A stretch of DNA of 42,826 bases from a virus. Below the pieces are notes generated by a model. It had not been told where the DNA came from. It worked only from the letters and a program-made list of their open reading frames with translations, and did not search any database. Made by a program: the position numbers and the translations under genes. Shown here piece by piece: positions 1,336-36,599 of this stretch (within the stretch, counting starts at the first letter, position 1; each line of letters opens with the position of its first letter). Where the stretch lies: positions 1 through 42,826 of the IMG/VR virus record IMGVR_UViG_3300038428_000826, one strand, 5' to 3'.

Positions 1336-1357
1336 AATTATTTCTTGAGAAATAATT
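1336..1357. repeat. dispersed palindrome copy 1 (parS-like)
   Basis: This is a perfect inverted repeat with arms AATTATTTCT and AGAAATAATT around TG. It lies between the lysis-gene stop codon and its terminator. It is the most perfect of five copies (others near 3107, 12882, 17320 and 36586). The core TTTC-NNNN-GAAA has the same architecture as bacterial parS (TTTC-ACGT-GAAA), and the phage encodes a full ParB. Confidence 0.8.
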
Positions 1358-1364
1358 TGGAACC

Positions 1365-2105
1365 CTACAGCTTCGAGAGATCGGATTGCAGGGTCTTGAG
1401 GTCAAACCCTTCCAGGGACTTATTGTTGACGAGCATCTCTGTGCTCAGATAGGCCACGGACTCGTCATTGTATGTTTTGAGAAAACTCCAGGCCATTGGC
1501 TGGATCTTCCCCCATGTCACGACGTAGATATACGTCCGGTCATACGCCACCGCCGGTACATAATGACCGCCTTCGATCGGTGAGTTTTTTACCACGGTCC
1601 ACGGTTGGCCCGCATTAAATTGATCCATGGCGCTTGAAGGCACTTCTATGCCTATCCCGACCGCCGAGAATAGGTAGATGGCAACAGTCAAATCGGCTTC
1701 GTTGCGCTTCCGGAGAGCCATATATGCGGCAACCTGGTGCCGAGTGTTGTCTGCTGCCAGAAGTCCAACCTTGCGCCGATATGAGGCCGCCGCCTGCATA
1801 TCGGTACCCTGGTCGGAGTTCGGATCGTTGGGATTAAAGCCTGTAATGGCTGAGTAGTCGCTGAGTACGCTCTGCTCTGAAAACGGGACGACCTTGCCGC
1901 CTTCTTTGTTCCAGAGCATCGTTTCATGAGCGCCGCCAGCCAATACGCAGTCGCCGTATTGATCGTTACCAAGCATCCCCCAATCGTCGATCATGGTCTG
2001 ATGGCCGAATGCGGGCGGCGGCTTGGGGAGTGTAATCCAGTAATCACCCATCTTGAACTTGATCGAATCCGGGCGCGCTGGCAGTTTTCCCAGTTTCAAC
2101 GTCAT
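1365..2105 (-). CDS. papain-like cysteine peptidase, probable lysin
   Basis: This encodes 246 aa. The C1-like fold is suggested by a nucleophile region QYGDCVLAG (Cys53), a histidine region GGHYVPAVAYD (His181) and a following Thr-Trp-Gly element (VVTWG, around 196-200). No signal peptide is present. It is the last gene of the late region, next to small membrane proteins and just before a terminator. That is a normal place for a lysis enzyme, so I read it as a candidate endolysin or a virion-associated peptidase. The substrate is unknown, and no cell-wall-binding repeat is seen. Confidence 0.65.
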   Translation of the reverse strand: MTLKLGKLPARPDSIKFKMGDYWITLPKPPPAFGHQTMIDDWGMLGNDQYGDCVLAGGAHETMLWNKEGGKVVPFSEQSVLSDYSAITGFNPNDPNSDQGTDMQAAASYRRKVGLLAADNTRHQVAAYMALRKRNEADLTVAIYLFSAVGIGIEVPSSAMDQFNAGQPWTVVKNSPIEGGHYVPAVAYDRTYIYVVTWGKIQPMAWSFLKTYNDESVAYLSTEMLVNNKSLEGFDLKTLQSDLSKL

Positions 2106-2377
2106 TGCGTAATCTCCTGACCCTGTTTATTCATTGCTGTAATGTGGATATTGTGTACTTTGCCGGGAAGCTCAAGGCAATGTACTTGGCTGTATTCCGG
2201 CTCCTCGTCTGTGATATAACATTGCTTGTCGTCGCAGAATGTCACTTTGCATTTGGCATCCTGTGTTGTTGTCCAAGCAAGGCAGTGATCGGAAACCTTT
2301 ACGTTCTCGATCTGAAAAGGGATACAGGCTACCAGCCCGAAGGCCAGTAGCCCTACGAAAAATCTGAGCCTAAACAT
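2102..2377 (-). CDS. small Cys-rich lipoprotein
   Basis: This encodes 91 aa with an N-terminal hydrophobic segment ending in the lipobox LVAC, so the mature protein would be a surface-anchored lipoprotein. The remainder carries five further cysteines (at CLAW, CKVTFCDDKQC and CLEL). It overlaps the membrane-protein gene upstream by 8 bp and the lysin start by 4 bp, which places it in the lysis cassette. It could be a spanin-like lysis factor if the host is diderm, or a superinfection-exclusion lipoprotein. The sequence does not decide. Confidence 0.65.
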   Translation of the reverse strand: MFRLRFFVGLLAFGLVACIPFQIENVKVSDHCLAWTTTQDAKCKVTFCDDKQCYITDEEPEYSQVHCLELPGKVHNIHITAMNKQGQEITQ

Positions 2378-3041
2378 CGCCGGTGTCTTTGATCTTCAAG
2401 ACCTGGCGCAGAGGCATCAATCCCTGATGGAATAGTGCCTGGCTTGTTACCTTGCAGTTCACAGGATGGGAGCGCCAGAACTGGTTATAATCTGCCACAA
2501 CCGCCCAGGTCGTCGGAGCGTCAAGACCGGTGATCGATTTGAACGATGCCGAGCAGATATCTAGAGCCTTGCTGAGCAGGCCCATCTTGACCGACATCGC
2601 CCATGCGGGATCGTTCCAGATGTCAGACAGGATGCGCGAGATGTTCGGAGCAACAGGAATCGGATCGATAGTAACGAGGCCGTTGCCGTCTGTTACCTTG
2701 TACGGCACACCCTCACTGTCCAGGTCTGCGTAAATGCTCTGCAAGATGGAATTAATGTCGCCAACCGGGTCCAGAGATCGAATACGCTTTGGCAGCGAAG
2801 ACTTGGCCTTTGCGATGTTCAAATCGTATGCCTTCTTGATGTATACGGTGCCGACAGTTCCAGCCATCACAACTGCAGCCAGCTTCACGATAAGGGCGCC
2901 GAACCATAGAATCAAGGTGACAGCGTTGGCGTTTTCCGGTACTACCAGTCCCAGGGACGGAAAAACGAAATTAAGGACGACCACCAGGACGAGACAGGCC
3001 AACATGACCCAGGTATGCCAGGATTTCCAATTGATATTCAT
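2370..3041 (-). CDS. membrane protein with two N-terminal TM segments
   Basis: This encodes 223 aa. Hydrophobic segments at about residues 10-35 and 42-68 are followed by a basic stretch (KAKSSLPKRIR) and a soluble domain of about 150 aa that I do not recognise. Its position between a coiled-coil/TM protein and the lipoprotein and lysin suggests a role in lysis (holin or accessory) or in host membrane modification. It is expressed downstream of the terminator at 3062-3095, so it needs readthrough or its own promoter. Confidence 0.6.
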   Translation of the reverse strand: MNINWKSWHTWVMLACLVLVVVLNFVFPSLGLVVPENANAVTLILWFGALIVKLAAVVMAGTVGTVYIKKAYDLNIAKAKSSLPKRIRSLDPVGDINSILQSIYADLDSEGVPYKVTDGNGLVTIDPIPVAPNISRILSDIWNDPAWAMSVKMGLLSKALDICSASFKSITGLDAPTTWAVVADYNQFWRSHPVNCKVTSQALFHQGLMPLRQVLKIKDTGDV

Positions 3042-3061
3042 AAAAATCCTCCATGGAAAAG

Positions 3062-3095
3062 AAAAAGCCGCTCTCGTTAAGATTCCGAGAGCGGC
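3062..3095 (-). terminator. intrinsic terminator
   Basis: The 10-bp arms GCCGCTCTCG (3067-3076) and CGAGAGCGGC (3086-3095) are followed on the minus strand by a T5 run. It lies between the holin-like gene and the two-TM protein. Confidence 0.85.
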
Positions 3096-3106
3096 CAGGA
3101 ACGAAG

Positions 3107-3127
3107 ATAACTTCTCAAGAAATAATT
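3107..3127. repeat. dispersed palindrome copy 2 (parS-like, half degenerate)
   Basis: The right arm AGAAATAATT with centre CA matches the consensus perfectly, while the left arm is degenerate (GATAACTTCT). It lies between the stop codon of the holin-like gene and its terminator, the same placement as copies 1 and 4. Confidence 0.65.
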
Positions 3128-3136
3128 ACATGATCA

Positions 3137-3484
3137 TCAACCCCCTTTACATCCCCAGGTGAGCCACCAGACGACTATGCCCGTAAGCACAGATCCCGCA
3201 CATCCGGCGGCGGCCAGAAGCAAACCATTTTTCAATGTCAGCATAGCTTTGAATTTTTCGGACTTTTCCTCTTTCTCTATGCCGTTATGACAGCCTTGCC
3301 ATTCTATGATCTCGCCAAGCTTCTCCGAGTGAGTAGCGCATGGCAGCTTGGCTAAAGCAGATCGTAGCTCGTCCTGAGCGGTAAAAAGCTTCCCGATGTG
3401 TTCCGTCTGCTGTGCTTGCTTTGACAGGATGACGTCCACTTTGCCCGAGACTTGGCCGAGCAATATGAGTTCTGGTGAATCCAT
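3137..3484 (-). CDS. holin-like coiled-coil protein with C-terminal TM
   Basis: This encodes 115 aa. Residues about 10-75 form a helical, probably coiled-coil region. This is followed by a charged stretch (EKEEKSEKFK), a single strong TM helix (LLLAAAGCAGSVLTGIVVWWLTW) and a short basic tail. This architecture resembles XhlA-type lysis proteins. An AGGAGG SD lies 5 nt before the ATG. It sits directly after the fibre genes, as lysis genes often do. Holin function is inferred from architecture and position only. Confidence 0.6.
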   Translation of the reverse strand: MDSPELILLGQVSGKVDVILSKQAQQTEHIGKLFTAQDELRSALAKLPCATHSEKLGEIIEWQGCHNGIEKEEKSEKFKAMLTLKNGLLLAAAGCAGSVLTGIVVWWLTWGCKGG

Positions 3485-3497
3485 GCGTGCCTCCTCG

Positions 3498-4106
3498 TCA
3501 TACGGCTACGCCGTTTATTTTGGCTATACTGGCTACCGCGATTCCATTGACTTTGGCAAGACCAGACGAAGTAATCCCGTTGACCTTGGCTATGTTTGCC
3601 CAACCTGTCGCAGCGGGATCTCCCCATACTTTTATCGCTGTGCTTCCGCTCCACAAATCCTGCCACGAAGCTCCGCCATTGAACGAACGGGTGAGGGAAC
3701 CTGCCGGATTGCCCTGATTATATGAACCACCTCCACATACATAAAAATTATTTCCAGAGGTCTCATACCAGACTGCTGCATATTGAGTATTGGCAGCAAG
3801 AGAGGCTCTACTTGTAAATGCCATGTCTGTGGACAATGTCGGATTATATGCGTTGTATGGCCACAGTGTTTCAATTGCTATTTCAACACTGCAAAGGTCA
3901 CTACCGGTTGGTCTGCCCCCCGAAGCTGCTCTAATTCCAATATGGATCACACCGGTCCATCCGGCGGAACGACTACCCAGAAGTTGAATTTTATCTACCG
4001 CAAAGGCAGTCTCAAGCGTTGTGAACATTTGGGCCCACAAATAGGTTTCACCGGTCATAAGGTAACCGGAGTTCCAGCCTTCTTGATCGATTCTTAATGT
4101 AGACAT
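3498..4106 (-). CDS. putative tail fibre / surface protein with AKVNG repeats
   Basis: This encodes 202 aa from the ATG at 4106; an in-frame TTG at 4139 would overlap the previous gene. The N-terminal ~160 aa are rich in Gly, Ser and aromatic residues and look like a beta-sandwich, jelly-roll-like domain. The C-terminus has three imperfect copies of a motif of the form (I/L)AK(V/I)NG(I/V), a repeat often seen at the ends of phage virion and fibre proteins. As the last structural gene before the lysis cassette it is likely an exposed adhesin or fibre tip. Confidence 0.6.
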   Translation of the reverse strand: MSTLRIDQEGWNSGYLMTGETYLWAQMFTTLETAFAVDKIQLLGSRSAGWTGVIHIGIRAASGGRPTGSDLCSVEIAIETLWPYNAYNPTLSTDMAFTSRASLAANTQYAAVWYETSGNNFYVCGGGSYNQGNPAGSLTRSFNGGASWQDLWSGSTAIKVWGDPAATGWANIAKVNGITSSGLAKVNGIAVASIAKINGVAV

Positions 4107-4120
4107 AGAATAAAGGCCTC

Positions 4121-8141: not shown

Positions 8142-8148
8142 TTTATCC

Positions 8149-10525: not shown

Positions 10526-10554
10526 CGCCCACAGCGTCGTCCAGCCGAGAGGCT

Positions 10555-12839: not shown

Positions 12840-13031
12840 TTACTTATCCCTCTTGCGCTTGCCCTTTGGCGGATCTTCGTCAATTATTTCTTGAGAAATA
12901 ATCGGAGACTCGTTCACTTCTATCGCAACGTCGATATTGACCAGGCGCCGGCCCATTTCGTCGGTAACATCCTCGATCATGCCGGTCTTGTCTTTGCCAT
13001 TAACGATATAGCTTCCGTATTTGATCCTCAT
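12840..13031 (-). CDS. small connector-region protein containing a palindrome copy
   Basis: This encodes 63 aa (MRIKYGSYIVNGKDKTG…), with an AAGGAG SD and a basic C-terminal tail (KGKRKRDK). It is unrecognised, but its place between gp6-like and adaptor genes makes it a probable neck accessory. Codons for the stretch IISQEII are formed by the dispersed palindrome at 12882-12902. That DNA motif is intergenic elsewhere. Confidence 0.6.
   Translation of the reverse strand: MRIKYGSYIVNGKDKTGMIEDVTDEMGRRLVNIDVAIEVNESPIISQEIIDEDPPKGKRKRDK
12882..12902. repeat. dispersed palindrome copy 3 (parS-like, intragenic)
   Basis: This has AATTATTTCT-TG-AGAAATAAT, matching copy 1 over 21 positions. It lies inside a coding sequence and is read in frame there, so the conservation cannot come from a terminator role. 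Confidence 0.8.
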
Positions 13032-17316: not shown

Positions 17317-17319
17317 TGG

Positions 17320-17338
17320 ATTATTTCTTGAGAAATAA
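17320..17338. repeat. dispersed palindrome copy 4 (parS-like)
   Basis: This has TTATTTCT-TG-AGAAATAA with intact 8-bp arms, placed between the stop codon at 17341 and the terminator at 17291-17316. Copies 1 and 2 have the same placement. Confidence 0.75.
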
Positions 17339-17340
17339 AA

Positions 17341-21547: not shown

Positions 21548-21625
21548 GCTGTGACTCCTTGGATTATTCCTTGGTGATTTTGTCAGTAAAATAAATTTTC
21601 GCCGCCAAAATACTTAACCAGGGAC

Positions 21626-21660: not shown

Positions 21661-22809
21661 ATGAAAACGGATATTCGTTTCATGGATGAGCTATTTCGTA
21701 TCGTCAATGGGGCATTACGTCTCGATATAGACAAAGTGCGCAATTATACGGCATACCTTGCCGACAGGATGGAAAAAGAGGGGGACAAGGTTTCGGCAAA
21801 CCGTCTACGTAGATTGCTGGAAGAAAATGATCACCAACTTAGACCTGCCGGTGTTGGCTTTGCCCCAACTCTACCAGTTGATGCCGATAGCCGATTCCCG
21901 CTCATCGAGCATATTAATCTGAAAACGCTACACGAGCCACCTGTCATTCTTTTACAGGAGCAATGGGACATCATCAACGAATTCCTGAGCGTATCCAAAA
22001 GCTACGCTCAGATTGACAGTCAGGGCATTGGCGGTTCAGTCAGCCTTCTCATGTATGGACCTCCGGGAACTGGAAAAAGCCGCTTGGCGCGATTTATTGC
22101 CCAGGAATTAGATTTGGAACTGTATGTGGCTCGTCTGGACGGGCTTATCTCATCTTTTCTTGGAAGCACTTCGAAAAACATCCGTGCCCTATTCAACTTT
22201 GCAGCCACGATGCCGTGCATTCTATTTTTGGATGAATTCGACGCAATCGCCAAGTTACGCGGTGATAATCTAGAATTAGGTGAATTAAAACGAGTCGTCA
22301 ACAGCTTCATACAGAACCTGGACGCACTTGGTCCACACTCTATCGTATTGGCAGCGACAAATCATGAAAAACTTCTCGATTCTGCCGTATGGCGTCGCTT
22401 CAGTTATCGCATTGAACTAGGCTTCCCATCAAACAGCCTTCGAGATCAGATGTGGTTACAATTTCTTCCGCCCACTAGCTTTGATGAGCGTGATTTAGAG
22501 CTACTTGTTGACCTTTCAGAAGGATTCACCGGTTCTGACATTCAAGAGGTGTGCCGAAGGCTTAACAGGCGGCGAATCACGACGCAGCGGGCTCCGGCAA
22601 TGATGGACGCCCTTCAGATTCTTCAGAATATCGGGATTGGAGAAGGGGAAGAGCGAAGATTTCTGTCAGGATTTAAAGGTAAAGACCCGCAGGCGATCGC
22701 TCATGCTCTCCGAGAGAGAAACGTGAAGCTGTACAGCCATGCTGCATTGGCGAAGCTCTTTGGGGTATCCAAAGCAACCGCCAGTAGATGGATGTTAAGA
22801 AAGGAGTAG
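21661..22809 (+). CDS. ietA: IetA-like AAA+ ATPase
   Basis: This encodes 382 aa. The AAA+ module has Walker A GPPGTGKS (~133-140), Walker B LFLDEFDA (~187-194), sensor AATNH (~230) and an Arg-finger WRRF (~245). The C-terminus (~360-382) is an HTH-like segment (HAALAKLFGVSKATASRW). Paired with a subtilase, this matches IetAS, a plasmid maintenance/exclusion and anti-phage system. The ATPase probably controls or delivers substrates to the protease. It has no visible SD, and its amber stop is in frame with the protease gene. Confidence 0.85.
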   Translation: MKTDIRFMDELFRIVNGALRLDIDKVRNYTAYLADRMEKEGDKVSANRLRRLLEENDHQLRPAGVGFAPTLPVDADSRFPLIEHINLKTLHEPPVILLQEQWDIINEFLSVSKSYAQIDSQGIGGSVSLLMYGPPGTGKSRLARFIAQELDLELYVARLDGLISSFLGSTSKNIRALFNFAATMPCILFLDEFDAIAKLRGDNLELGELKRVVNSFIQNLDALGPHSIVLAATNHEKLLDSAVWRRFSYRIELGFPSNSLRDQMWLQFLPPTSFDERDLELLVDLSEGFTGSDIQEVCRRLNRRRITTQRAPAMMDALQILQNIGIGEGEERRFLSGFKGKDPQAIAHALRERNVKLYSHAALAKLFGVSKATASRWMLRKE

Positions 22810-22815
22810 AGAAGA

Positions 22816-25149
22816 ATGGTAGGTAGCGAGATACCAAGAATCGAGCATCTGCCGATAAAACTGATCATGCCACGGCAAGGCAAGGAGAGGAAGGTGGAAG
22901 CCGGCGGCGCCCCACCCGTGCCCTTTAGGGAAGTTGATGCGAAGTACCGAAAAAGTCTATCAAATCAGATATCTGCCATCTATACCGCGATAACGCCGCA
23001 GGTCAAGCAGAGGGGTGCAGCGCCATTACGCGTTAAACTACTGACGAGGGCGGTGGCGAAAAGTCATAGGCCGCAGCAACTCTTTTCCGCCAAGACATGT
23101 CCCATCATCGGTGCCGGGCGATTGGGCGAGTTATATATAAAGGCAACTGATGAAGGACTTAGGAACTTAAAGGAAATCGTTGATTCCAGTACCTCAATAC
23201 AAGTGGAAAAGGAATTGTCGAGCATCGAAGCAATAGAAATAATAACACCGTCCTATCGCCGTAAAGGAATAGAAACCAGGGATGTTCTACGCCGAAGCCC
23301 CCGCGGCAAAGAGGGTTTCATCACACGTGTCAGGCTCTTCAATTTCGGAGCGAGTACGGAACAAGATGGAGTTGTCGCAGAATTTGAAGAGGTATGCCGC
23401 GGTCGGAAGATACTACTCAATGCGGCAGGCTATTCCGAGGGTAGCTTTATCTATGGTGCAGAGTGCCGTTCGGTTGAGGATATAGACGCTTTGACACGGG
23501 TCTTGGGTGTCAGATCCGTTTCTAGCATGCCGTTAATTCGAGTGGTGCGTCCGGCTATGTACAATACAAAGCCACTGCCGCAGTTACTCAAGCGACAGGA
23601 TGTCTCTGGTGACGTCCCGGTTGTAGTAGTTGTTGATAGCGGTATAAGCGATCTAGTTCCGGAGCTTAATGCGTGGGTAGTAGGACGAGACTCGAGGGTA
23701 GCGCCGCAATATCGTAACTCGGATCACGGAACCTTTGTCGCCGGCCTTATCTGCTGGGGCAGCAGTTTTAATCCTACTGTCCCTGGAATAGATGGGAGTC
23801 CCTGTGCAGTCTTCGACTTTCAGGTTATCCCAAATAACGATCCAAGCAAGGGAGAGACCGACGCATTGCAGGAGCAAGAATTTCTGGTTTCCATTGATTC
23901 TGCACTTAGGGAACATGCCAACGAATATAAAGTATGGAATCTCTCGCTAGGTACCAATGAGATTTGCTCTCTCGACGAGTTTTCCGAATTCGCCGAAGAA
24001 TTGGACAACCTCCAAGAAAAATATCAAGTATCATTTGTTATCAGCGCTGGTAATTTCGATACCCCGCCCCTTCTGGACTATCCGCGCAAGCCGTCTCAAC
24101 TTGATATTGGTAGAATTACAACACCAGCTGACAGCGTCCTTGGAATTACTGTTGGCGCAGTATCCCACGTAGACTATGTGAACATGGGGCCAAAGATGCA
24201 CGAGCCGTCAGCCTTTTCAAGGCATGGGGCAGGGCCAAACTACATAATAAAACCGGACATGGTTCATTATGGTGGGGCATGTGCCATTGACGCATCTCAT
24301 ACTTCCGGCATCCGTTCCTTGAACGGGAGAGATTCAGCGGAAAACTTAGGAACAAGCTTTGCCGCCCCATTGGTATCAAAGGTGCTTGCGCAAATTTATC
24401 ACCAGATCACGCCAACCCCTCAACCGGTTCTTGCACGTGCGCTGTTGACACACCATGCTCGTGACCCCAGAACAAATGGCAGAGTTCCCGACGGCGAGGA
24501 AAATTTCTTCGGATTCGGGTTGCCAGCACCAGTACCCTACTGCCTCGAATGCACCCCCTATACTTCTACCCTCGTGTTTGATGATGTTCTCCGACCTGGA
24601 TATTATCTTGAGTGGGACGATTTTCCTTATCCATCGTCACTGAGACGGGATGGCAGGTACTTCGGTGACATCTGGATGACCGTGGCGTTCGCTCCCGCTC
24701 GTGGTGCAAGATGGGGCAGTGAGTATTGTGAGACCCATATAGATGCGCACTTCGGCGTTTATCAGGATCATGTCTCACGTGCCACTGGTGAGATAACAAG
24801 TGAATTCAAAGGCCTTGTTCCCCCAGAGCATAAAAATCCAGGAAAACTTTACGAATCCTATCAGGTCGAGAAACTACGAAAGTGGGCGCCGGTTCGCACG
24901 TACCATGGAAATCTGGGGGAAGGCGGTAAGCCCGGCACGCGATGGCGCTTGATGGTGAAGCTTCTCACCCGACATGACGTTGAGGATACGACATCTTTCA
25001 AACCGCAGCCATTTTCTCTGATTATAACAATCGCTGATCCAGAACAGAAGGCCCCTGTATATGATGAAATGGCACGCATTGTCCGAAATCGTTTCCAGGC
25101 ACAAAACCTCGCTTTAAGGGCTACCGCTCGCATCCAAGGTAGACCATAA
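22816..25149 (+). CDS. ietS: IetS-like subtilisin-family serine protease
   Basis: This encodes 777 aa. The S8 catalytic triad is intact: Asp in VVDSGISD (~274), His in SDHGTFVAG (~304) and Ser in GTSFAAPLV (~514). An oxyanion Asn lies in VISAGNFD. There is no signal peptide, so it acts in the cytoplasm. A long N-terminal region (~1-260) and C-terminal domain (~600-777) flank the protease and may hold it inactive or sense infection. AGGAG overlapping the ietA stop is its SD. Its start is 6 nt downstream of, and in frame with, the ietA TAG. Confidence 0.85.
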   Translation: MVGSEIPRIEHLPIKLIMPRQGKERKVEAGGAPPVPFREVDAKYRKSLSNQISAIYTAITPQVKQRGAAPLRVKLLTRAVAKSHRPQQLFSAKTCPIIGAGRLGELYIKATDEGLRNLKEIVDSSTSIQVEKELSSIEAIEIITPSYRRKGIETRDVLRRSPRGKEGFITRVRLFNFGASTEQDGVVAEFEEVCRGRKILLNAAGYSEGSFIYGAECRSVEDIDALTRVLGVRSVSSMPLIRVVRPAMYNTKPLPQLLKRQDVSGDVPVVVVVDSGISDLVPELNAWVVGRDSRVAPQYRNSDHGTFVAGLICWGSSFNPTVPGIDGSPCAVFDFQVIPNNDPSKGETDALQEQEFLVSIDSALREHANEYKVWNLSLGTNEICSLDEFSEFAEELDNLQEKYQVSFVISAGNFDTPPLLDYPRKPSQLDIGRITTPADSVLGITVGAVSHVDYVNMGPKMHEPSAFSRHGAGPNYIIKPDMVHYGGACAIDASHTSGIRSLNGRDSAENLGTSFAAPLVSKVLAQIYHQITPTPQPVLARALLTHHARDPRTNGRVPDGEENFFGFGLPAPVPYCLECTPYTSTLVFDDVLRPGYYLEWDDFPYPSSLRRDGRYFGDIWMTVAFAPARGARWGSEYCETHIDAHFGVYQDHVSRATGEITSEFKGLVPPEHKNPGKLYESYQVEKLRKWAPVRTYHGNLGEGGKPGTRWRLMVKLLTRHDVEDTTSFKPQPFSLIITIADPEQKAPVYDEMARIVRNRFQAQNLALRATARIQGRP

Positions 25150-27378: not shown

Positions 27379-27454
27379 AGCGATAAAAAAACAGACCCGC
27401 CAAAGGAGCCGAGGAACCGCTAATTGCAGCCGAAGACTCCCTCATGGATATTTA

Positions 27455-27483: not shown

Positions 27484-27549
27484 TTCCGCAATCTTGAGGT
27501 TATGATATTGGTACAATGCAAATATTCAGACGGTCGGGGAGGTAGTTAA

Positions 27550-30500
27550 ATGCCGCAGTATGAATCACTTGACAAACTGGTCTCTCAGAAGGCCGCTGAT
27601 TTCGCGCACCAAATCAAGGCCGCGGCAGCGATGGCTGATAACGAGGAGGAAATCAGGATTGAGGTTGAAAGCCAGCTTGCCTTGATAAAAAGGGACTTGG
27701 GATTTGAATTTAAAGGTAAACATGAATTTACCCTAGCGAGCGGGCGACCTGACTCGGTTTATTCAGGTGTAATCATTGAATACAAGAATCCTAAAAGTCC
27801 CGGCAATCGCATTGGGGAGAGAAGTGACTCACCAGGAAGCAAGAAGGTCGTGGAGCAGATAAAAAAGCGGTTCTACGATATGCGTCATGAACATGGACAG
27901 CCGATGAACTCACTGCTTGGCGTAGGACTTGATGGGAATTACTTCATTTTCGTCCGCTTTCGGGATGAGAAATGGCAGATTCAGGAGCCTGTCGAGATCA
28001 ATCGACACTCGGCTGAAAGATTCCTCTGGGCATTGTTTAACCTGGGCCAGAAGGGTAAGCCATACTCGCCAGAATACCTGGCAGGCGACTTCGGTTCGGA
28101 AGGCGGCTCGACCGTGGCTATTACAGGAATTCACGCGCTCTACGATGCCATTCTGACCACACAGAATCCCAAGGCACAGACATTCTTCAGTCAGTGGAAA
28201 ATACTCTTCGGTGAAGTTTGTGGCTACGATGTAGATAATCCCACTGACAAGCTCAGGAAGCTCGCCGAATTCTACCAAGTGGGCATTATCGACCCAAAAC
28301 CCGCGGAATTGCTCTTTTCTGTCCACACATACTATGCATTGTTCATGAAGCTGCTAGCCGCAGAAATCGTCGCTTTCTTCCACAAGTTATCGACTCCACT
28401 GCAAAAGATGATGCATGCCACCACCAGTGCTAAGTTGAAGCGTGAAATGGAAGACCTTGAGACAGGCAGCATTTTTCGCCTTCTCAACATCACTAACTTT
28501 TTGGAAGGCGATCTTTTCGCCTGGTACACCGGTGTTTGGACCGAGCCGATTGAGCAACTTGTACGTGACATGGTGACACGGCTTGATGCTTACAATCCGG
28601 GCACACTCTCGGAAGATCCTTCTAACAGCCGCGACTTGCTCAAAAAACTCTACCAGCAACTTTTCCCCAAGAGTGTCCGACACGATCTTGGCGAGTATTA
28701 CACACCCGACTGGCTTGCTGAACATGTGCTTAATGAACTCGATTATATCGGTGACCCGGACAAACGCCTGCTCGATCCAGCCTGTGGTTCAGGCACGTTC
28801 CTAGTCATGGCCATCAATCGCATTAGAGAATGGTATGATGAGAACCGCGAAAATTGTCGGTTCGATGAAGGCGAGCTTGGGCACAAAATTCTTTCAAATG
28901 TGATCGGCTTCGATCTTAACCCGCTGGCTGTGATGGCTTCCCGCACTAACTACCTAATCGCCATCCGCGACCTTATCGGTCGAATGGATAAGGTCGAGAT
29001 TCCAGTATACCTTTGCGACTCTATAATGACGCCATCTGAGTACGGTGGCCTGTTTGCCGGAAAACTGGGTATAGCAAAAGAACTAAAGACGGCACCCGCT
29101 ACCTTCATTATTCCTGCTGAGATCGCTTCTAATCGAGAGGATGTGGCGAAATACGCAGAACAATTGGAGTTATGTGTTCGCAATGGCTATTCGGCTGAAG
29201 AGTTCATCCAGCGCTGTTGTGATGAAGGGCTCCCTATCACGGAGCATCAACTTCACTGTGGGTTGTATAATGAACTCGTTAAACTGGATAAAGCGAACAA
29301 GAACGGAGTCTGGGCTCGGATCATCAAGAATGCTTTCGCTCCGATCTTTACTCATCAGGTCGATTACATAGCAGGTAATCCGCCATGGGTAACTTGGTCT
29401 AGTCTCCCGCAAGACTATAGGAAATCCACTACAGCACTCTGGCAAAAATACGACCTCTTCAGGCACAAGGGACTACGTGCTCAGTTGGGAAGTAGTGGTG
29501 ATGATATCTCGATCTTAATGACATATGTGTCAGCGGATAACTTCCTTAAAAATGGGGGGAAGTTAGGATTCGTAATAACGCAGAGTCTGTTTCAAAGTAA
29601 GGGGGGAGGAGAGGGGTTCAGACGTTTCAAGATAAATGACACCGACTATCTGCACCCTCTGTGCGTCCACGACCTTGTAGCTATTAATCCCTTTGAGGGA
29701 GCGACCAACAGAACCGCTGTGTTTATCGCTCAGAAAAATGGAGCTCCTATCTATCCAGTACCATATTTTCGGTGGCATAGTATTGCTGCCAAGTCATTGA
29801 ATCCGCACATGGAATTAAAAGAAGTACTTAACTTATGCACATTGGAACAACTAGCCGCGGAACCCATATCATCAGCTAAAGATTCTTCGTGGCAAGTCAC
29901 AGGTAAAAGCTATGATGGCGCACTTCGAAAGGCGAAGGGAAAAGCCGCTTACAAAGCCCGCAAAGGCATTAGTACATCTGCAAACGGGGTATTCTGGATA
30001 ACAGTACTGAGATCGCTAAATGGGAATAAAGTACTTGTCCAAAATATGTACGATGTTGGTAAGAAGACAATTCCTAGTGTTCAAGCGGCAATTGAGTCTC
30101 CTAATGTTTATCCGCTTCTTAGAGGTCGAGACATTGAACGATGGTGGGCAGAGGCTTCTTGTTACATAGCTATTGCACAGGACCCTACATCACCTAATAA
30201 AGCCATCACAGAAACTCAACTGAGGAGAATTGCGCCTTCTCTCAATGATTATTTCCGTGAATTCAAAGACATCCTAACAGCTAGAAAAGACTATAAGAAG
30301 TTTTTTGAGCCCTCGGGAGCACCGTTTTACTCGCTATATAATTTCGGTCATTACACGATGACTCCGGTAAAGGTATTATGGCGTTATATAGACACTGATT
30401 TTCGTTGCGCCGTAGTCGAACCCATCTTCGACAAAAACCTTGAACGAGTAACGACTATTCTTCCTGACAGCAAACTCGTGTTAATCGATTTGGATAATTC

Positions 30501-30873
30501 TGATGAGGCTTATTTCGTCTGTGCGTTGCTTAATTCATCTCCTGCCCGAATGATCGTCAAGTCATATGTGGTGGGAACGCAAATCTCAACACATATCCTA
30601 GACTCTATAAAGGTACCCCATTACGATCCAAAGAATGATGTGCATAAGCTTCTTGTAAAATACAGCAGAGAAGCACACAAAATAGTCCGCAACCAACGAG
30701 CAAGGTCGAGTATTTTAGATAATAAAGAAATTGATAGAATAGAAGCACAAATTGATATAGAAGCAGCAATAATATGGGATATGAAACGCAGTGAACTTCA
30801 GACAATACAATTAGCTTTGAAAACTGGGGCATCAGGTGCTCAAGATAACAATGATTCTGATGATCCGGAGTAA
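27550..30873 (+). CDS. PD-(D/E)XK nuclease fused to N6-adenine methylase (restriction-type)
   Basis: This encodes 1107 aa. The N-terminal nuclease motif has Asp in RPDSVY (~68) and E-Y-K in VIIEYKNP (77-79). The middle holds an adenine methylase: motif I DPACGSGTF (~407) and motif IV NPPW (~610). The C-terminal ~400 aa resemble a target-recognition domain. This is the layout of type IIG or PglX-like enzymes: site-specific methylation of self DNA plus potential cleavage of foreign DNA. It is followed, 3 nt past the stop, by an SNF2 helicase gene. It appears more AT-rich than the surrounding phage genes. Confidence 0.8.
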   Translation: MPQYESLDKLVSQKAADFAHQIKAAAAMADNEEEIRIEVESQLALIKRDLGFEFKGKHEFTLASGRPDSVYSGVIIEYKNPKSPGNRIGERSDSPGSKKVVEQIKKRFYDMRHEHGQPMNSLLGVGLDGNYFIFVRFRDEKWQIQEPVEINRHSAERFLWALFNLGQKGKPYSPEYLAGDFGSEGGSTVAITGIHALYDAILTTQNPKAQTFFSQWKILFGEVCGYDVDNPTDKLRKLAEFYQVGIIDPKPAELLFSVHTYYALFMKLLAAEIVAFFHKLSTPLQKMMHATTSAKLKREMEDLETGSIFRLLNITNFLEGDLFAWYTGVWTEPIEQLVRDMVTRLDAYNPGTLSEDPSNSRDLLKKLYQQLFPKSVRHDLGEYYTPDWLAEHVLNELDYIGDPDKRLLDPACGSGTFLVMAINRIREWYDENRENCRFDEGELGHKILSNVIGFDLNPLAVMASRTNYLIAIRDLIGRMDKVEIPVYLCDSIMTPSEYGGLFAGKLGIAKELKTAPATFIIPAEIASNREDVAKYAEQLELCVRNGYSAEEFIQRCCDEGLPITEHQLHCGLYNELVKLDKANKNGVWARIIKNAFAPIFTHQVDYIAGNPPWVTWSSLPQDYRKSTTALWQKYDLFRHKGLRAQLGSSGDDISILMTYVSADNFLKNGGKLGFVITQSLFQSKGGGEGFRRFKINDTDYLHPLCVHDLVAINPFEGATNRTAVFIAQKNGAPIYPVPYFRWHSIAAKSLNPHMELKEVLNLCTLEQLAAEPISSAKDSSWQVTGKSYDGALRKAKGKAAYKARKGISTSANGVFWITVLRSLNGNKVLVQNMYDVGKKTIPSVQAAIESPNVYPLLRGRDIERWWAEASCYIAIAQDPTSPNKAITETQLRRIAPSLNDYFREFKDILTARKDYKKFFEPSGAPFYSLYNFGHYTMTPVKVLWRYIDTDFRCAVVEPIFDKNLERVTTILPDSKLVLIDLDNSDEAYFVCALLNSSPARMIVKSYVVGTQISTHILDSIKVPHYDPKNDVHKLLVKYSREAHKIVRNQRARSSILDNKEIDRIEAQIDIEAAIIWDMKRSELQTIQLALKTGASGAQDNNDSDDPE

Positions 30874-30876
30874 GCA

Positions 30877-33800
30877 GTGACATTGGTAGTAGATTATATA
30901 GACAACTTCGATACCAAGGCGATCGACGTCATCCGCGATCTCTCCGCCGATGCGGAGCAGCTTGACATCGCCGTGGCATTCCTATCCTTCCGTGGTTGGA
31001 TGGAGATTAAGCCGTGTCTGATTTCCCTTATTAGTCGCGGCGGTACGCTACGCGTCATTGTCAGACGAGATATCAAACAGACTAGCCCGGAAGCTATCGA
31101 AGAACTCTTCCACTTAGAGAATACCCAGGTTGCCTTCGGTCTATCGGACACCAGTTTCCACCCCAAAGACTACCTATTCCGTTCAAAAGGAGGACAATGT
31201 CTTAACGTCATCACCTCATCAGCCAATGCAACTTATCCTGGTTTGACCCACAATGATGAGGGTGGAGCGATTATCACGCATAGCGACATGCAAAATGATG
31301 AGGCAGGGAAGAAAGCAATAATCATTTTCGACCGGCGCTGGCAAAATGCCACTATCATCAATGACGAAATACTGGCTGAATTTAAAAATGACGCCATGAA
31401 ACTGGAGTTTGGCGAGGGTGACCTGGTACGTAGCACGAACGAACTTTTCAAAAGCTATGGCATAGGACGAATTCAAAAAGCGCGAGGGCCACAAGCGAAA
31501 GTGGAGTTTAATCCGTCTATCTTCATGATGCCACCTTATAGATCTGAAAATAAGATACTACAACTGGCAGAACTTGAAAGAATCGATTCCCCTTTAAAAA
31601 GGGCGTTGAATGGAATTTGGGAAGAACCCGGCCGGTTCGAACTCAAAATGATGGCAGCACGATTCCTGACCGGGAATAAAGGCGGACAGTTATCGAATGC
31701 GAGAACGCAGATTCTACCCCACCAGATTTTTGCTGCGTACAGAGTAGTCTCCAGTCCCCTGCGACGCTTCCTGCTAGCGGATGAAGTTGGATTGGGCAAA
31801 ACAATTGAGGCTGGCATGGTCTGGCAAGCGTTATGGCAAAGAGGCCAAGCTAAACGCACGCTTATCATCACACCTGCAGGATTAACTACCCAATGGCAAG
31901 AAGAAATGCAAGATAAATTCGGTCAATTATTTGAAATATTCGGCCGTGACTTCTGGGCAGTCAATCCAAGGATATGGGATTTAAAGGCCACAGCCATAGC
32001 GTCCATCGATACTTTGAAGCGGGCGGAACATAAGAAGGCATTACTCGAGAATAGAAAATGGGATCTGGTCATTATTGATGAAGCTCATCGTCTGAGCGCC
32101 ATGAGTTACGATTCGGGCAAAACGGACAAAACACAGAATTACAAACTGGCGGAAGAAATCAGACAGAAGAGCTACTGTGACGCGATGCTATTATTGACCG
32201 CCACTCCGCATCAAGGGGAAGAGAACAACAGCCGGTTTAAGAATCTAGTGGGTCTGCTTGAAGATGGTATTGACTTCACTGGGTTAGACGAACCTACACT
32301 ATTCTCGGGGACGGGAAAACGATTCACGGAACTGGTGATTCGTACGCCCAAGAAGGATGTCACGGACGCACAAGGGCGCAAAGTATTCAAAGGCCGCCAG
32401 ACAACCAGGTTGCTCGTAACTCTGTACGAGGATGAATCCAAATTCTATAAGGCGGTAGTTGACTATATTAGAACTGGTTACAAATCCCTTGAGCAGATAG
32501 TCGACCCTTCACATAAACGCGCAGCGGGTTTCTTGCTAACAACTTTCCAAAAGTTAAATTCGAGCTCAACAGCGGCCATTAAATCTGCTTTGAACAAGAG
32601 GATGATGAGACTAAGAGGGGACATTGACGCCCGCACCAATGCAGAGGAGGGCACTCCAGACGAATTCGACGAGAGATACGAGGGGGAACACGAGGAAAGC
32701 GAAGCATTAAAGACGCAACTTGAGATAATGCAATTCGAAGCGGATGCGTTGAAGAAGCTCATAGATATTAACGTCAAGCGAGATCACAAGCTGGATGAGC
32801 TTCTGAAGCTTATAGGAATTATCTACAAAGAGAGCCCCAGAAAAGATAAGGAAAAAATACTAATATTCACGGAATACCGTGAGACGCAACGCTACTTGGT
32901 GGCGGAAATTGAAAAGAAGTACGGCAAAGGATCCGCAGTCGTAATCCATGGCGACATGAAGCTCGAGCGAAAGGAAGAGAATATTCAGGATATCGACGTA
33001 ATATGGATGCCTTTCGCCAAGGATGGTGCGAGTGCGGCTCCCACAACTAAGCGCACCAGCCAGCGTCTATTCAGAGATCACGACAAAGTGAGGTTTCTGG
33101 TTTCCACAGAAGCCGGTGGAGAGGGAATTAATCTACAATTTTGCCATATTTGCATTAATTACGATCTTCCCTGGAATCCCATGCGCCTGGAGCAACGAGT
33201 TGGCCGCGTCTATCGCTTCGGGCAGGAAAAGGTGGTACAGGTATATAACTTTCTAAACAAGGGAACAATCGAGGATTTAGTCCAGTCCTACTTTCAGCAG
33301 AGACTTGAAAGAGCATCTTCGGCAATCGCCAAAGTAACCGGAGAAGATCCGGAGGAAATAATTGGTACCTTGAATGGCCAATTAGAAAGTGAGATAGACC
33401 CATCTAAGATTTATCAACGAGCCATCGTGGAAGGCACCCTAAATAAACAAAGTCAAAACGAAATAAAAGAGGCCGTCGAACGAGCAAAAAGGGCTTACGA
33501 AATAGCTACACAAAGTTTATTTAGAGACGTTTCCAGCTACTCTTTTTCCAATTACCAGCGGGATATCGCCACAGAATTAACCCTGGGAGAGCTACAGCAA
33601 TTCTTCGAAAAATTCCTAACAATGAACAAGCGGCAAGTGCAGCGAAAGGGCGGCTTCCTCGAATTCATAGTGCCTGACGTCCTACGCTCATACGGGTTAC
33701 CGGACAGATACCAAATAGCTACGTTTGATAGAGAATTGGCCATCAAACGCAGTGACTCTGATTTCATGGCTTTGGGGCATCCGTTTATTAATTCCATGCT

Positions 33801-34164
33801 TGAATATGTTGGTTCCTATGATTTTGGCGGTCTCTCCGCCATTAGAGAGATCAAAGCATCGGAAGTTGCAGGGGAATCTGGCTTTCTCTTCATATTTGTG
33901 ATTCGCCATAGGCTAACACGTGAAGATGGTGATGAATACTTGTTTGAGTTTATGCCCGTATTTGTCGATGAAAGCAATAAAGTGGATGAAAAACTGCTAC
34001 CTTTTGCACTTAAATCCGGAGCCGGTTCTGATACTTCTATTAACCCGCCTGATCCGACAGCAGCGTTCAGTACAGCTAAGAAATACGTTGAGCAAAAAGC
34101 GTCAATATGGGACTGGGATGAGAATATTGAATTTGTCGGCATAAGCTGGGTAGTGTTCAAGTAA
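30877..34164 (+). CDS. PLD-domain SNF2 helicase of restriction cassette
   Basis: This encodes 1095 aa from a GTG with GGAG 6 nt upstream. Residues ~1-170 form a phospholipase-D-like domain with H-P-K (95-97) and a SSANAT … N-D-E stretch, i.e. a single HKD-type site. The SNF2 motor has DEVGLGKT (~302), DEAH (~400), LLTATPHQ and RVGRVYRFGQ (~773). It resembles DrmD of class 1 DISARM and related archaeal helicases. It probably translocates on DNA marked as unmodified and works with the upstream nuclease-methylase. No DrmA, DrmB or DrmC is present. Confidence 0.8.
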   Translation: MTLVVDYIDNFDTKAIDVIRDLSADAEQLDIAVAFLSFRGWMEIKPCLISLISRGGTLRVIVRRDIKQTSPEAIEELFHLENTQVAFGLSDTSFHPKDYLFRSKGGQCLNVITSSANATYPGLTHNDEGGAIITHSDMQNDEAGKKAIIIFDRRWQNATIINDEILAEFKNDAMKLEFGEGDLVRSTNELFKSYGIGRIQKARGPQAKVEFNPSIFMMPPYRSENKILQLAELERIDSPLKRALNGIWEEPGRFELKMMAARFLTGNKGGQLSNARTQILPHQIFAAYRVVSSPLRRFLLADEVGLGKTIEAGMVWQALWQRGQAKRTLIITPAGLTTQWQEEMQDKFGQLFEIFGRDFWAVNPRIWDLKATAIASIDTLKRAEHKKALLENRKWDLVIIDEAHRLSAMSYDSGKTDKTQNYKLAEEIRQKSYCDAMLLLTATPHQGEENNSRFKNLVGLLEDGIDFTGLDEPTLFSGTGKRFTELVIRTPKKDVTDAQGRKVFKGRQTTRLLVTLYEDESKFYKAVVDYIRTGYKSLEQIVDPSHKRAAGFLLTTFQKLNSSSTAAIKSALNKRMMRLRGDIDARTNAEEGTPDEFDERYEGEHEESEALKTQLEIMQFEADALKKLIDINVKRDHKLDELLKLIGIIYKESPRKDKEKILIFTEYRETQRYLVAEIEKKYGKGSAVVIHGDMKLERKEENIQDIDVIWMPFAKDGASAAPTTKRTSQRLFRDHDKVRFLVSTEAGGEGINLQFCHICINYDLPWNPMRLEQRVGRVYRFGQEKVVQVYNFLNKGTIEDLVQSYFQQRLERASSAIAKVTGEDPEEIIGTLNGQLESEIDPSKIYQRAIVEGTLNKQSQNEIKEAVERAKRAYEIATQSLFRDVSSYSFSNYQRDIATELTLGELQQFFEKFLTMNKRQVQRKGGFLEFIVPDVLRSYGLPDRYQIATFDRELAIKRSDSDFMALGHPFINSMLEYVGSYDFGGLSAIREIKASEVAGESGFLFIFVIRHRLTREDGDEYLFEFMPVFVDESNKVDEKLLPFALKSGAGSDTSINPPDPTAAFSTAKKYVEQKASIWDWDENIEFVGISWVVFK

Positions 34165-34169
34165 TTAAA

Positions 34170-34207
34170 ACAAATATATCTATTTGTGCGTGATAACCTA
34201 TACGCAC
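34170..34207 (+). terminator. two overlapping hairpins after the helicase gene
   Basis: ACAAATA/TATTTGT (34170-34176 with 34181-34187) overlaps a second hairpin, GTGCGT/ACGCAC (34186-34191 with 34202-34207). There is no good T-run, so this may be a weak or bidirectional transcription end, or a mutually exclusive fold. Confidence 0.4.
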
Positions 34208-34225
34208 CCCAATTGATGAAGCTGT

Positions 34226-34300
34226 TGGACCGGGGGCCGGGATTCGAACCACGGCATCACAGGTTTAGGGCCTGTTGTCCTACCGCTAGACTACCCCCGG
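34226..34300 (-). tRNA. tRNA-like gene, anticodon CUA (amber), atypical
   Basis: This is 75 nt with a 7-bp acceptor (CCGGGGG/CCCCCGG, extendable by two pairs if the discriminator is ignored), a D-arm GTCTAGCGGTAGGAC, anticodon stem ACAGG/CCTGT, loop CCCTAAA, TTCGAAT in the T loop, U73 and an encoded CCA. Anticodon positions 34-36 read CUA, which pairs with UAG. Two anomalies stand out: position 33 is C rather than U, and the T stem either carries a bulged T or two mismatches. It may be a suppressor tRNA or a decaying one. Confidence 0.7.
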
Positions 34301-34622
34301 TCAGTTCCTCACATTTGAAACCGGCGCGCATAAGCCAGCTCCCGACATAGGAGCGATGGCAGTCGGCCGGGTTTTTTTCCCAACATATAAGTATTTTGCC
34401 GTCCAGCTCCTGCCCGACTTTCTGCGGATCGAGCTCGGCAAGAATGTCATCATAGAGCTGGTAATATTGGGTTGTACTCATTTTGAGCATCGCCCTGGTC
34501 GGAGCTAATGCCAAATAGCGCTGCCCCTTCCAGTTTGGGGGAACGCCGATTGAGATTGCGACCTTTCGTTCTCTCTCGATACCCGCTAATATAGGACTCT
34601 TAAAATAAGATGTATAGATCAC
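34257..34622 (-). CDS. DUF488-family protein running into the tRNA gene
   Basis: This encodes 121 aa starting at GTG 34622, overlapping the TGA of the RHH gene as GTGA. The signature C-W-E-x-N-P-x-D-C-H-R (ICWEKNPADCHR) is the conserved core of DUF488, whose function is unsettled. The last ~15 codons (TGGSLAVGQQALNL, stop at 34257) lie inside the tRNA gene at 34226-34300. The natural C-terminus may therefore have been lost and replaced by tRNA sequence. Confidence 0.75.
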   Translation of the reverse strand: MIYTSYFKSPILAGIERERKVAISIGVPPNWKGQRYLALAPTRAMLKMSTTQYYQLYDDILAELDPQKVGQELDGKILICWEKNPADCHRSYVGSWLMRAGFKCEELTGGSLAVGQQALNL

Positions 34623-34747
34623 TTCCCCGCCTTTTTCAGCAGCTTTTGGATGATGGCCTCGTAGCTATCGCCCTTTTTGCCCATCCTAGCTAGCTTTTCG
34701 GCGGTTTCCTTACTGACCTGGATCGTGGTCATTCCTTCTTTGCTCAT
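34619..34747 (-). CDS. ribbon-helix-helix / VapB-like antitoxin-type regulator
   Basis: This encodes 42 aa (MSKEGMTTIQVSKETAEKL … SYEAIIQKLLKKAGK). The beta strand MTTIQVS followed by two helices is the ribbon-helix-helix layout of small DNA-binding antitoxins. It lies directly before DUF488 and overlaps it (GTGA). The -10 of the promoter ends only 7 nt upstream of the ATG, so the mRNA seems leaderless. It could repress its own promoter and the other two copies of the operator block. Confidence 0.7.
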   Translation of the reverse strand: MSKEGMTTIQVSKETAEKLARMGKKGDSYEAIIQKLLKKAGK

Positions 34748-34771
34748 TGTAATCATTATATCAGTTATAAC
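34748..34771 (-). promoter_or_regulatory. promoter/operator copy C (RHH-DUF488)
   Basis: The core of the shared block is TGTAATCATTATA (34748-34760) and GTTATAAC (34764-34771), with the same 3-bp gap as in copies A and B. On the minus strand -10 TATAAT is at 34755-34760. The -35 is poor (AAATAA-like), unlike copies A and B, so this promoter may depend on an activator. Confidence 0.7.
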
Positions 34772-34781
34772 CGCCATTATT

Positions 34782-35243
34782 TTAGATAAGGTTTCGAGCC
34801 TTCATACTTAGGAATTTCTTCGGTTCTGCCAGGATGATATGATCGAGTACCGGAATCCCTAGCAACTCCCCACATTCCACGAGTCGCTTCGTCAAGTTTA
34901 TATCCTCGCTGGATGGTTCCGTGTCTCCGCTCGGGTGGTTATGAAAAAATATCACGCTTGAGGCGTTAGCAGTTATCGCAAATTTGAAAACTTCCCTCGG
35001 ATGGACGAGCGAACTGTCCAGCGTCCCGACTGACACGATGTTGAATCCGATCACACGGTTGCGGGTATTCAGGGCCAGGACGCCGAACATCTCTCGGTCG
35101 GCGCCGTCGAATATGCCCCGGACCGCTTGCGCCGCCGCTTCAGGTGAGGTTGCTTCGTTTGCCAATAGACACTCTGTTTTGTGAGATAGGCCGGAATCCC
35201 GAACCATCATCAACGTGTAGGCCGTGACCTTCGTTCCGCTCAT
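34782..35243 (-). CDS. radC: RadC-like JAB/MPN-domain protein
   Basis: This encodes 153 aa. The JAMM motif is complete: Glu (~51), H-x-H (HNHPSGD, 101-103) and S-x-E-D (111-114). RadC-like proteins are common on mobile elements; despite the name a role in repair is not established. It overlaps the 35240-35647 gene by ATGA and belongs to the parB operon. Confidence 0.85.
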   Translation of the reverse strand: MSGTKVTAYTLMMVRDSGLSHKTECLLANEATSPEAAAQAVRGIFDGADREMFGVLALNTRNRVIGFNIVSVGTLDSSLVHPREVFKFAITANASSVIFFHNHPSGDTEPSSEDINLTKRLVECGELLGIPVLDHIILAEPKKFLSMKARNLI

Positions 35244-35647
35244 TTTACCACCACCTTGAACTGGTCAGCCAGATTGCGGAACCACTGATTAACAAATATT
35301 ACCAGTTGCTTTTGTGCCGAGTAGTGAACCCACTTGACCACACCGTCCTTGAAAACGACGGTCTCTTGGTCTACGCCCAAACCGTCCTGTCGGTACGAGA
35401 TGGGATAGTAGTTAAGGTCTTTCCCTTTTATGAACACTACGTCGGGGTCACGCATTAGATCGCCGTTCTGCTCGTAGTATTGTGCGACTGAGTACATTTC
35501 GCCGTAATTGCACTCACCCACCCACTCGATATGAAGGGCCATGAAGCCAGAGGATTCCGGCTCTAGCTTTTTCGGGCTGTCCAGGGTGACGCCTTTGGTG
35601 AGATCGTCCATAAAGTGCGTTGCTACTGTGCTAATCGGCTTCATCAC
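35240..35647 (-). CDS. hypothetical protein (DUF6908-like)
   Basis: This encodes 135 aa from GTG 35647 (or ATG 35644). The segment YYEQNGDLMRDPDVVF is reminiscent of the DUF6908 type found on plasmids and phages; I have no function for it. It lies between parB and radC with overlaps on both sides, so it is part of the same operon. Confidence 0.65.
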   Translation of the reverse strand: MMKPISTVATHFMDDLTKGVTLDSPKKLEPESSGFMALHIEWVGECNYGEMYSVAQYYEQNGDLMRDPDVVFIKGKDLNYYPISYRQDGLGVDQETVVFKDGVVKWVHYSAQKQLVIFVNQWFRNLADQFKVVVK

Positions 35648-36498
35648 TACACCCCCAGGAGAGCGGATACCCTGCGGTACTCTAGGCTCTCGCGGAACTT
35701 TCCGACCAGCTTGTAGAGCATATCGACCTTCTCTTGCGTTATGTCAAGCTTGTCAGCTATGGCCTGGGCTGTCATGCCAGGATTGTCCAGCTCCAAATCG
35801 TTGATCTCCTGGAACGCTTTACAGGCCCGCTCAAATGCTGTATCGAACTTCTTGCGGGCTTCGGCCTCTTTTGGAGAGAGCTTGGTCTCGGGGAAAAACT
35901 CGACTTGGTTCTCTTCGCAATAGATTTTCTCAATCAACTTCCGGCATTCGGCTACTGAGAGCTTGTCGCCCTGCATGATCCTGATTACTCTCGCTTGACC
36001 GTTAATGCTCAGCTTGGACAGAAACCCGGCCACCGCTACGGAGAATTGACCGCGCTCGACCATGTGCTGCACGTCCTCGCGACACTTGAGCAAGCTCAGG
36101 CTCCAGGTGATTTGTCCTTTATCCTTCCCTATTACCTCAGCCAGCTCGTCAACGTCATGGCCGTCGTCCAGGTACTTTTGATATGCTCGGGCGACTTCCA
36201 TCGGGTTAAGGTCCGCCCGATTAATGTTCTCTATTAGCTGCAACTCTTTGGCCAGGTTGCCGGTGTAGACGATGCAGTCAACCTCGGGAAGCCCCAGGGA
36301 GCTTATAGCCCTAAACCTGCGCTCACCGGCGATGATGATGTATCCTCTTCCATCCGGCCTCACCGTTATCGGCTGGAGAAGGCCGTTTTTGGCAATGGAC
36401 TGCGCCAGCTCTGCTATTGCAGTTTCGTCAAAGACCTTGCGCGGCTGCTCAGGATCAGGCCTTATGTCCTTAACTGCAACTCTCATGATTTCCCTCAT
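35647..36498 (-). CDS. parB: ParB-family CTPase/DNA-binding protein
   Basis: This encodes 283 aa. The ParB N-terminal domain has GERRFRA (58-64) and ENINRADLNPME (90-101), the CTP-binding motifs. An HTH follows (VDELAEVIGKDKGQITWSLSLL, ~116-138), then a helical C-terminus. ParB proteins load at parS sites and slide as CTP clamps. No ParA gene is visible in the window. TAGGAG lies 9 nt upstream of the ATG. The dispersed TTTC-NNNN-GAAA palindrome is a natural candidate for its binding site; one degenerate copy lies just upstream of the promoter. Confidence 0.88.
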   Translation of the reverse strand: MREIMRVAVKDIRPDPEQPRKVFDETAIAELAQSIAKNGLLQPITVRPDGRGYIIIAGERRFRAISSLGLPEVDCIVYTGNLAKELQLIENINRADLNPMEVARAYQKYLDDGHDVDELAEVIGKDKGQITWSLSLLKCREDVQHMVERGQFSVAVAGFLSKLSINGQARVIRIMQGDKLSVAECRKLIEKIYCEENQVEFFPETKLSPKEAEARKKFDTAFERACKAFQEINDLELDNPGMTAQAIADKLDITQEKVDMLYKLVGKFRESLEYRRVSALLGV

Positions 36499-36523
36499 CC
36501 GTTAATACTCCTATACGATTACT

Positions 36524-36575
36524 TATAATCATTATAGTAGTTATAACGTCTAAGTCAATAGGTACGCAGAAAAAA
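36524..36575 (-). promoter_or_regulatory. promoter/operator copy B (parB operon)
   Basis: -35 TTGACT (36553-36558), a 16-bp spacer and -10 TATAAT (36531-36536) are seen on the minus strand. TATAATCATTATA (36524-36536) and GTTATAAC (36540-36547) are identical to copy A, and the upstream region with its A-run (GTACG-C-AGAAAAAATT) is nearly the same. Confidence 0.85.
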
Positions 36576-36585
36576 TTACGGGAAT

Positions 36586-36599
36586 ATCTCTTGAGAAAT
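36586..36599. repeat. dispersed palindrome copy 5 (degenerate)
   Basis: TCTCTTGAGAAAT keeps the core CTTGAGAAAT but lost part of the left arm. It is about 30 bp upstream of the parB -35, where a ParB autoregulatory site could lie. Confidence 0.5.

Follow-up and report, generated by a model that had tools for sequence, protein, structure and literature searches.

Dispersed palindromes in a ParA-less phage as candidate loading sites of an orphan ParB

What reads a short palindrome that recurs at distant places along the genome of a phage that encodes ParB and no ParA? The question is raised by an IMG/VR record (IMGVR_UViG_3300038428_000826), a 42.8-kb stretch of DNA, hereafter the window, which by its gene content (head and tail genes, Rep O, an S24 repressor and a large serine recombinase) belongs to a temperate tailed phage. 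The window holds such sites in dispersed positions, they recur in phages that have ParB and lack ParA, and in three relatives the residues that set ParB site specificity match the sites. With moderate confidence, we favour the reading that an orphan phage ParB would load onto DNA at these dispersed palindromes, which most resemble Noc-binding sites. The protein would bind the palindromes, slide from them as a clamp and probably serve to keep, organise or mark phage DNA rather than to drive ParA-dependent partition.

Palindrome copies in the window

The core of the motif is a 16-mer with TATTTCT arms around a TG centre (TATTTCTTGAGAAATA), which is found exactly at 1339, 12885 and 17322, while the copies at 3109 and 36585 have two mismatches each. 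The longer pattern AATTATTTCTNNAGAAATAATT, allowing up to three mismatches, matches at 1336-1357 (none), 3106-3127 (three), 12882-12903 (one) and 17319-17340 (three), and not once in 100 dinucleotide shuffles of the window. The dispersed five-copy palindrome that an earlier note had described, and had proposed to count against shuffled sequence, is therefore borne out as four such matches and a degenerate fifth at 36585-36600; its start positions 1336 and 12882 agree with ours, whereas 3107 and 17320 are each off by one (3106 and 17319).

The sites occupy places that follow stop codons or precede terminators or ribosome-binding sites, and some fall in codons that tolerate them. Site 1 (1336-1357, plus strand), a perfect 10-2-10 inverted repeat with a TG centre, sits between the stop codon (1365) of the minus-strand gene at 1365-2105 and an intrinsic minus-strand terminator that follows it directly (1331-1301). 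Site 2 (3106-3127), in the opposite orientation (minus strand) and with one degenerate arm, lies between the stop codon of the minus-strand gene at 3137-3484 and a terminator at 3065-3094, and site 4 (17319-17340, plus) is flanked by the stop codon with which the head-morphogenesis gene ends (17341) and by a directly adjoining intrinsic terminator (17317-17298, minus). Site 3 (12882-12903, plus) falls within a small open reading frame (12840-13031, minus), where it is read in frame as I-I-S-Q-E-I-I. The degenerate site 5 (TATCTCTTGAGAAATG, 36585-36600, plus) immediately precedes the parB promoter, with ~87 bp separating it from the parB start codon, and is the sole window copy near a promoter. 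All of these surroundings are as the earlier note had described them.

A probable sixth site, in decayed form, can be aligned by eye at 21565-21580 (minus), upstream of the small terminase gene, and a decayed prophage in the Chloroflexota genome G171 holds an exact site at the place that matches it in the same alignment by eye. Around an exact motif copy in this genome, which belongs to the Ardenticatenia phylum (Chloroflexota), lie decayed relatives of two window genes (G171:C44:56825-57791; L392, L395). The gene pieces are 74-92% and 78% identical to their window counterparts and may be a clue to the host of the window phage.

Recurrence in other phages and fit to ParB

In scans of viral contigs for the motif, most matches in AT-rich contigs were coding background (an I-S-x-E-I reading) and were discarded; L004 was rejected as chance on this ground. 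In contigs with more than ~43% guanine plus cytosine (GC), copies with a TG/CA centre turn up again, frequently in the order stop codon, motif, terminator or stop codon, motif, ribosome-binding site (L005, L006, L170, L187, L239, L250, L262, L274 and L290). The centre is also favoured among terminase relatives, which were chosen without the motif: four of five arm matches with up to two mismatches have TG/CA, where 1 in 8 is expected (p=0.001).

Three other long contigs hold several copies each: four exact copies and one near copy in G025, two exact and several near copies in G028, and two exact and three near copies in G030. These contigs were selected by the motif and not by ParB, and HTH_ParB is found in all four multi-copy contigs, the window included, and in 2 of the remaining 38 long contigs (p=1e-4; 9e-4 without the window). 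No window gene other than ParB has homologs in G025, G028 and G030 alike. The absence of ParA, claimed earlier for the window from its letters, holds there as well as in G025, G028, G030, G009 and G001 when the profiles PF13614 and PF01656 are used, both of which are positive in 14 of 14 control genomes.

The published specificity code of ParB and Noc, in which Q173 recognises A at half-site position 1 and R201 reads cytosine 6 (PMC7383237), allows the sites to be compared with the proteins. The ParBs of G025, G028 and G030 have Q162, S172, Q173, N178 and R204, with T at 201. Among 39 aligned sites, A occupies position 1 in 78 of 78 half-sites, a position that was part of the search pattern, with two mismatches allowed, and position 6 is T in 74 of 78 and C in 2 of 78. 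The fit between A1 and the Q173 ParBs is thus what the published code predicts, and T201 may pair with T6.

Copies inside genes point to selection on the DNA itself. One gene shared by G025, G028 and L241 encodes LFLEKY (CTT GAG) across the site, while neighbouring silent positions differ; at this place L254 has LFLKKY (CTC AAG), and its site is still perfect, with the centre flipped from TG to CA. Because the E-to-K change leaves the palindrome intact through this flip, the coding copies appear to be kept as DNA sites.

The motif also emerges when it is not supplied. A de novo search for dispersed 16-bp near-palindromes, compared with shuffles, returned TATTTCTTGAGAAATA as the top cluster in the window, G025, G028 and G030, although the three copies counted in G028 equalled the highest of eight shuffles in one run and exceeded all shuffles in another. 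Other lineages gave other palindromes. G001, with ParB and without ParA, has 15 dispersed copies of CGTTTCNNNNGAAACG, whose GTTTC half-site is the canonical parS half-site, and the ParA-less Acidovorax phage Aval, which encodes ParB, has five of GTGCACACGTGTGCAC, a count that equals one high shuffle of its 66% GC null in one run and lies above all in another. The ParAB replicon Yong-DA, taken as a positive control, likewise yielded its own dispersed palindromes. A copy lies within parB itself in six replicons (G025, G028 in degenerate form, G030, G001, Aval and Yong-DA), for which a rough estimate made after looking gives p ~2e-4.

Two contigs from this search may be described further. G001 (L343-L345), a phage contig of 60 kb, carries two genes of the ParB family, and its CGTTTCNNNNGAAACG sites lie mostly in coding frames read V-S-T-E-T. 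G059 (L363-L365), a ParB-less phage contig, carries three exact copies of TTTAGGATATCCTAAA, ~11-14 kb apart.

The window ParB and its relation to known systems

The window parB gene (35647-36498, minus) encodes a ParB N-terminal CTPase fold (ParB_N, 80.8 bits) followed by HTH_ParB. The cytidine triphosphate (CTP) motifs noted earlier are intact, the GERR box as AGERRFRA and the ENxxR motif as ENINRADLNP. The protein starts at the ParB_N domain (residue 3), so that it has no N-terminal membrane-targeting extension or helix. Its AlphaFold model (predicted local distance difference test score, pLDDT, 75) is an ordinary ParB fold, by which DNA reading is not settled.

Several observations weigh against ParB as the reader of the sites, and the first of them concerns this very protein. 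Six parS contacts are conserved in ParB and Noc alike, namely Q162, G170, K171, S172, N178 and R204 (PMC7383237), of which the window ParB keeps only G170 and K171. Q162 is lost and the other changes are S172D, R173K, N178W, G201A and R204G; among Q173, K179, K184, R201, Q162, S172, N178 and R204 it has K184 alone. With its contact residues changed in this way, the published code does not predict that it reads TATTTC. The parS-like TTTC-N4-GAAA architecture that the earlier note saw is therefore present in the sites, but the window ParB residues that would read it do not match.

The closest relative adds to this difficulty. Direct searches of viral and genome collections for close parB relatives gave only 37-39% matches or none, and portal and DUF6908 queries gave no matches. 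By way of terminase relatives we reached G009 (L055), a 42.4-kb contig whose terminase, portal, scaffold and capsid are 43-58% identical to those of the window. Its full-length ParB, at 43% identity the most similar to the window ParB, shares W178, K173 and K184 with it, yet G009 has neither a copy of the motif core nor any other dispersed palindrome. The earlier proposal of ParB-binding sites, for which loss of the motif beside a retained parB was to be the refuting observation, consequently draws support from recurrence in phages with ParB and from the fitting residues of G025, G028 and G030, while G009, taken by itself, speaks against it.

Nor does every phage with ParB show such sites. G057, G002 and POA1180 have ParB but no palindrome cluster above chance, and the overall contrast, in which 7 of 11 ParB-positive replicons as against 1 of 12 ParB-less phages (the latter with a three-copy palindrome above its null) have dispersed palindromes (p=0.008), shrinks to 3 of 7 against 1 of 12 (p=0.12) once the motif-selected contigs and the window are left out. 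Finally, the G025-type ParBs are without the canonical GERR box, so that CTP clamping by them is conjectural.

Weighing both sides, we hold to orphan-ParB loading sites as the most fitting description of the palindromes, and we regard it as a further step, about evenly balanced, that the window's own diverged ParB reads the window sites. They may be read by the phage's ParB, by one from outside, or not at all. Mechanistically, a ParB dimer would bind a site, close as a CTP clamp and slide off, and a few sites some kilobases apart would allow such clamps to coat the whole phage genome.

The consensus of the Noc-binding site is TATTTCCCGGGAAATA. The Noc system of Firmicutes is the nearest known counterpart, as it combines a ParB paralog acting without ParA with many dispersed 16-bp palindromes having a TATTTC half-site (PMC7383237, PMC8429893). 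The phage sites share the 16-bp palindrome, the A1-T2-T3-T4-C5 half-site and the many dispersed copies, and the ParBs of G025, G028 and G030 share Q173. They differ in having T rather than C at position 6, a TG/CA centre and T or A instead of R at residue 201; in addition, the window ParB lacks the membrane-targeting extension, and the setting is a phage and not a chromosome.

Canonical ParABS systems are more distant. They have in common with the window the ParB CTPase fold with its helix-turn-helix, a 16-bp inverted repeat with a TTTC-N4-GAAA core and one site in or near parB, but here ParA is absent, the copies are dispersed and the window ParB is without most of the conserved parS contacts. 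The half-site TATTTCT departs from the parS consensus TGTTTCACGTGAAACA at positions 1 (A and not G) and 6. KorB of RK2 is likewise a ParB-family CTP clamp, which acts in long-range silencing on a mobile element and is a Foldseek relative of the window ParB; unlike what is proposed here, it acts with KorA, and its operator sequence differs (PMC11790492). KorB operators are placed at promoters, and in the window no KorA was seen, although no search aimed at it was made.

ParB without ParA is widespread in phages (PMC12704722; PMC10286716). The excerpts read from these two papers report no binding sites, whereas candidate sites were found here in several such phages. A 2023 paper knew of no characterised phage with ParB alone (PMC10286716), and a 2025 survey calls many orphan ParBs of mobile elements uncharacterised (PMC12704722). 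Candidate cognate sites, obtained by simple computation in several ParA-less phages with ParB, turn binding and function into a bench question, and the retention of the sites while the reading head of the window ParB changed provides a natural experiment on the evolution of ParB specificity. Tentatively, and with rather less conviction than we attach to the loading-site reading, phage orphan ParBs could represent a general, ParA-independent way of coating genomes, each lineage with its own loading palindrome in ~4-15 copies, often one of them in parB, kept even inside coding sequence. Clamps loaded at these lineage palindromes would cover the phage DNA in lysogeny or replication, as Noc does on chromosomes.

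The parB promoter region (36518-36577, minus), read from the sequence as TTGACT-16-TATAAT, includes an operator of the TTATAATNATTATAA type. Its 60 bp have an 87%-identical copy at 1195-1254, where a scan scores the same promoter. Boxes of this type occur at 36523-36546 and 1191-1223, where they overlap the -10 regions of the parB promoter and its sister promoter, and at 34747-34761, where one marks the beginning of a small antitoxin-like gene; they resemble the PerR box.

Other possible readers and neighbouring features

The divergence of the window ParB invites the idea that its sites are read by the ParB of another cell or element, be it a Noc-like host protein, a prophage or a co-infecting phage. 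Three perfect copies persist although the reading head has diverged and the nearest relative has no motif, and the decayed prophage pieces of G171 keep exact sites while the best match to the window ParB in that genome covers only 78 residues. Host chromosomes, however, are not clearly enriched in the motif (8 exact matches among those listed for 400 Chloroflexota genomes, where the control pattern gave 3), and three other phages encode the fitting ParB themselves. We judge an outside reader unlikely.

Alternatively, the copies could be a legacy of an ancestor whose Q173-type ParB was replaced by the present type, and would then be decaying. G028, whose portal (54%) and scaffold (52%) are related to those of the window, has both a Q173-type ParB and the motif, and two of the five window copies are degenerate, as is the probable sixth. 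Decay sits poorly with three copies that have all 16 bp intact and flanks that are palindromic and AT-rich in a genome of 51% GC, and we give this account only a slim chance.

Operators of another phage regulator, such as the stoperators of an immunity repressor, are improbable. Short repressor sites are indeed spread over the genomes of temperate mycobacteriophages (PMC9283540), and S24-type repressors are encoded by the window, G025 and G028. Those stoperators are asymmetric and bound by the immunity repressor, also at its own promoter, whereas the motif is a palindrome present in both orientations and not linked to a repressor. The recognition helices of the three S24 repressors are unrelated, which disfavours them as common readers, and their promoters carry no motif copy.

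The frequent position of the motif ahead of terminators could also indicate an RNA element, i.e. a hairpin acting in termination, antitermination or mRNA end processing. The order stop codon, motif, terminator is found at 12 of 39 sites as against 21 of 1020 random positions (a background of 2%), and two of three tested window copies form hairpins ahead of a terminator, with stems of 7-9 bp and loops of 4 nt. Yet the loop is UCAA or UUGA depending on the copy and is not oriented with transcription, and such mixed orientation disfavours action as RNA. Many copies lie in coding frames or before ribosome-binding sites without a terminator, and L254 keeps the DNA palindrome through its flipped centre; an RNA function is accordingly very improbable. 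Stop codons, palindromes with other centres and terminators also adjoin in L142, L178 and L153, so adjacency alone is not specific. Control of transcription termination, which the earlier note had raised, is one possible reading of the strong adjacency of motif and terminator; the available non-coding space would explain it too, and the position might also protect the sites from transcription.

A serine-recombinase or dif-type core, suggested by the 2-bp centre, was rejected as there is no repeated crossover context, and a mobile hairpin insertion because conservation at the borders of the copies stops after one or two A/T-rich bases. LexA- and CodY-type operators were also considered and not adopted.

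Elsewhere in the window, an inverted-repeat iteron of 16-20 bp (TTATCGTGGTTGATAA) occurs seven times at 38170-38455, within the Rep O gene, and marks a likely replication origin. A transfer RNA (tRNA) gene with a CUA (amber) anticodon (34229-34300, minus) is labelled tRNA-Pyl by ARAGORN, and the tRNA body looks ordinary; since TAG serves as the stop codon in 11 of 53 genes, wholesale TAG recoding is not seen in the window phage. An IetA-IetS defence pair (AAA ATPase and subtilase; 21661-25149, plus) is inserted beside the small terminase gene, and a type IIG restriction-methylase together with a BrxH/DrmD-like PLD-SNF2 helicase (27550-34164, plus) is probable defence cargo.

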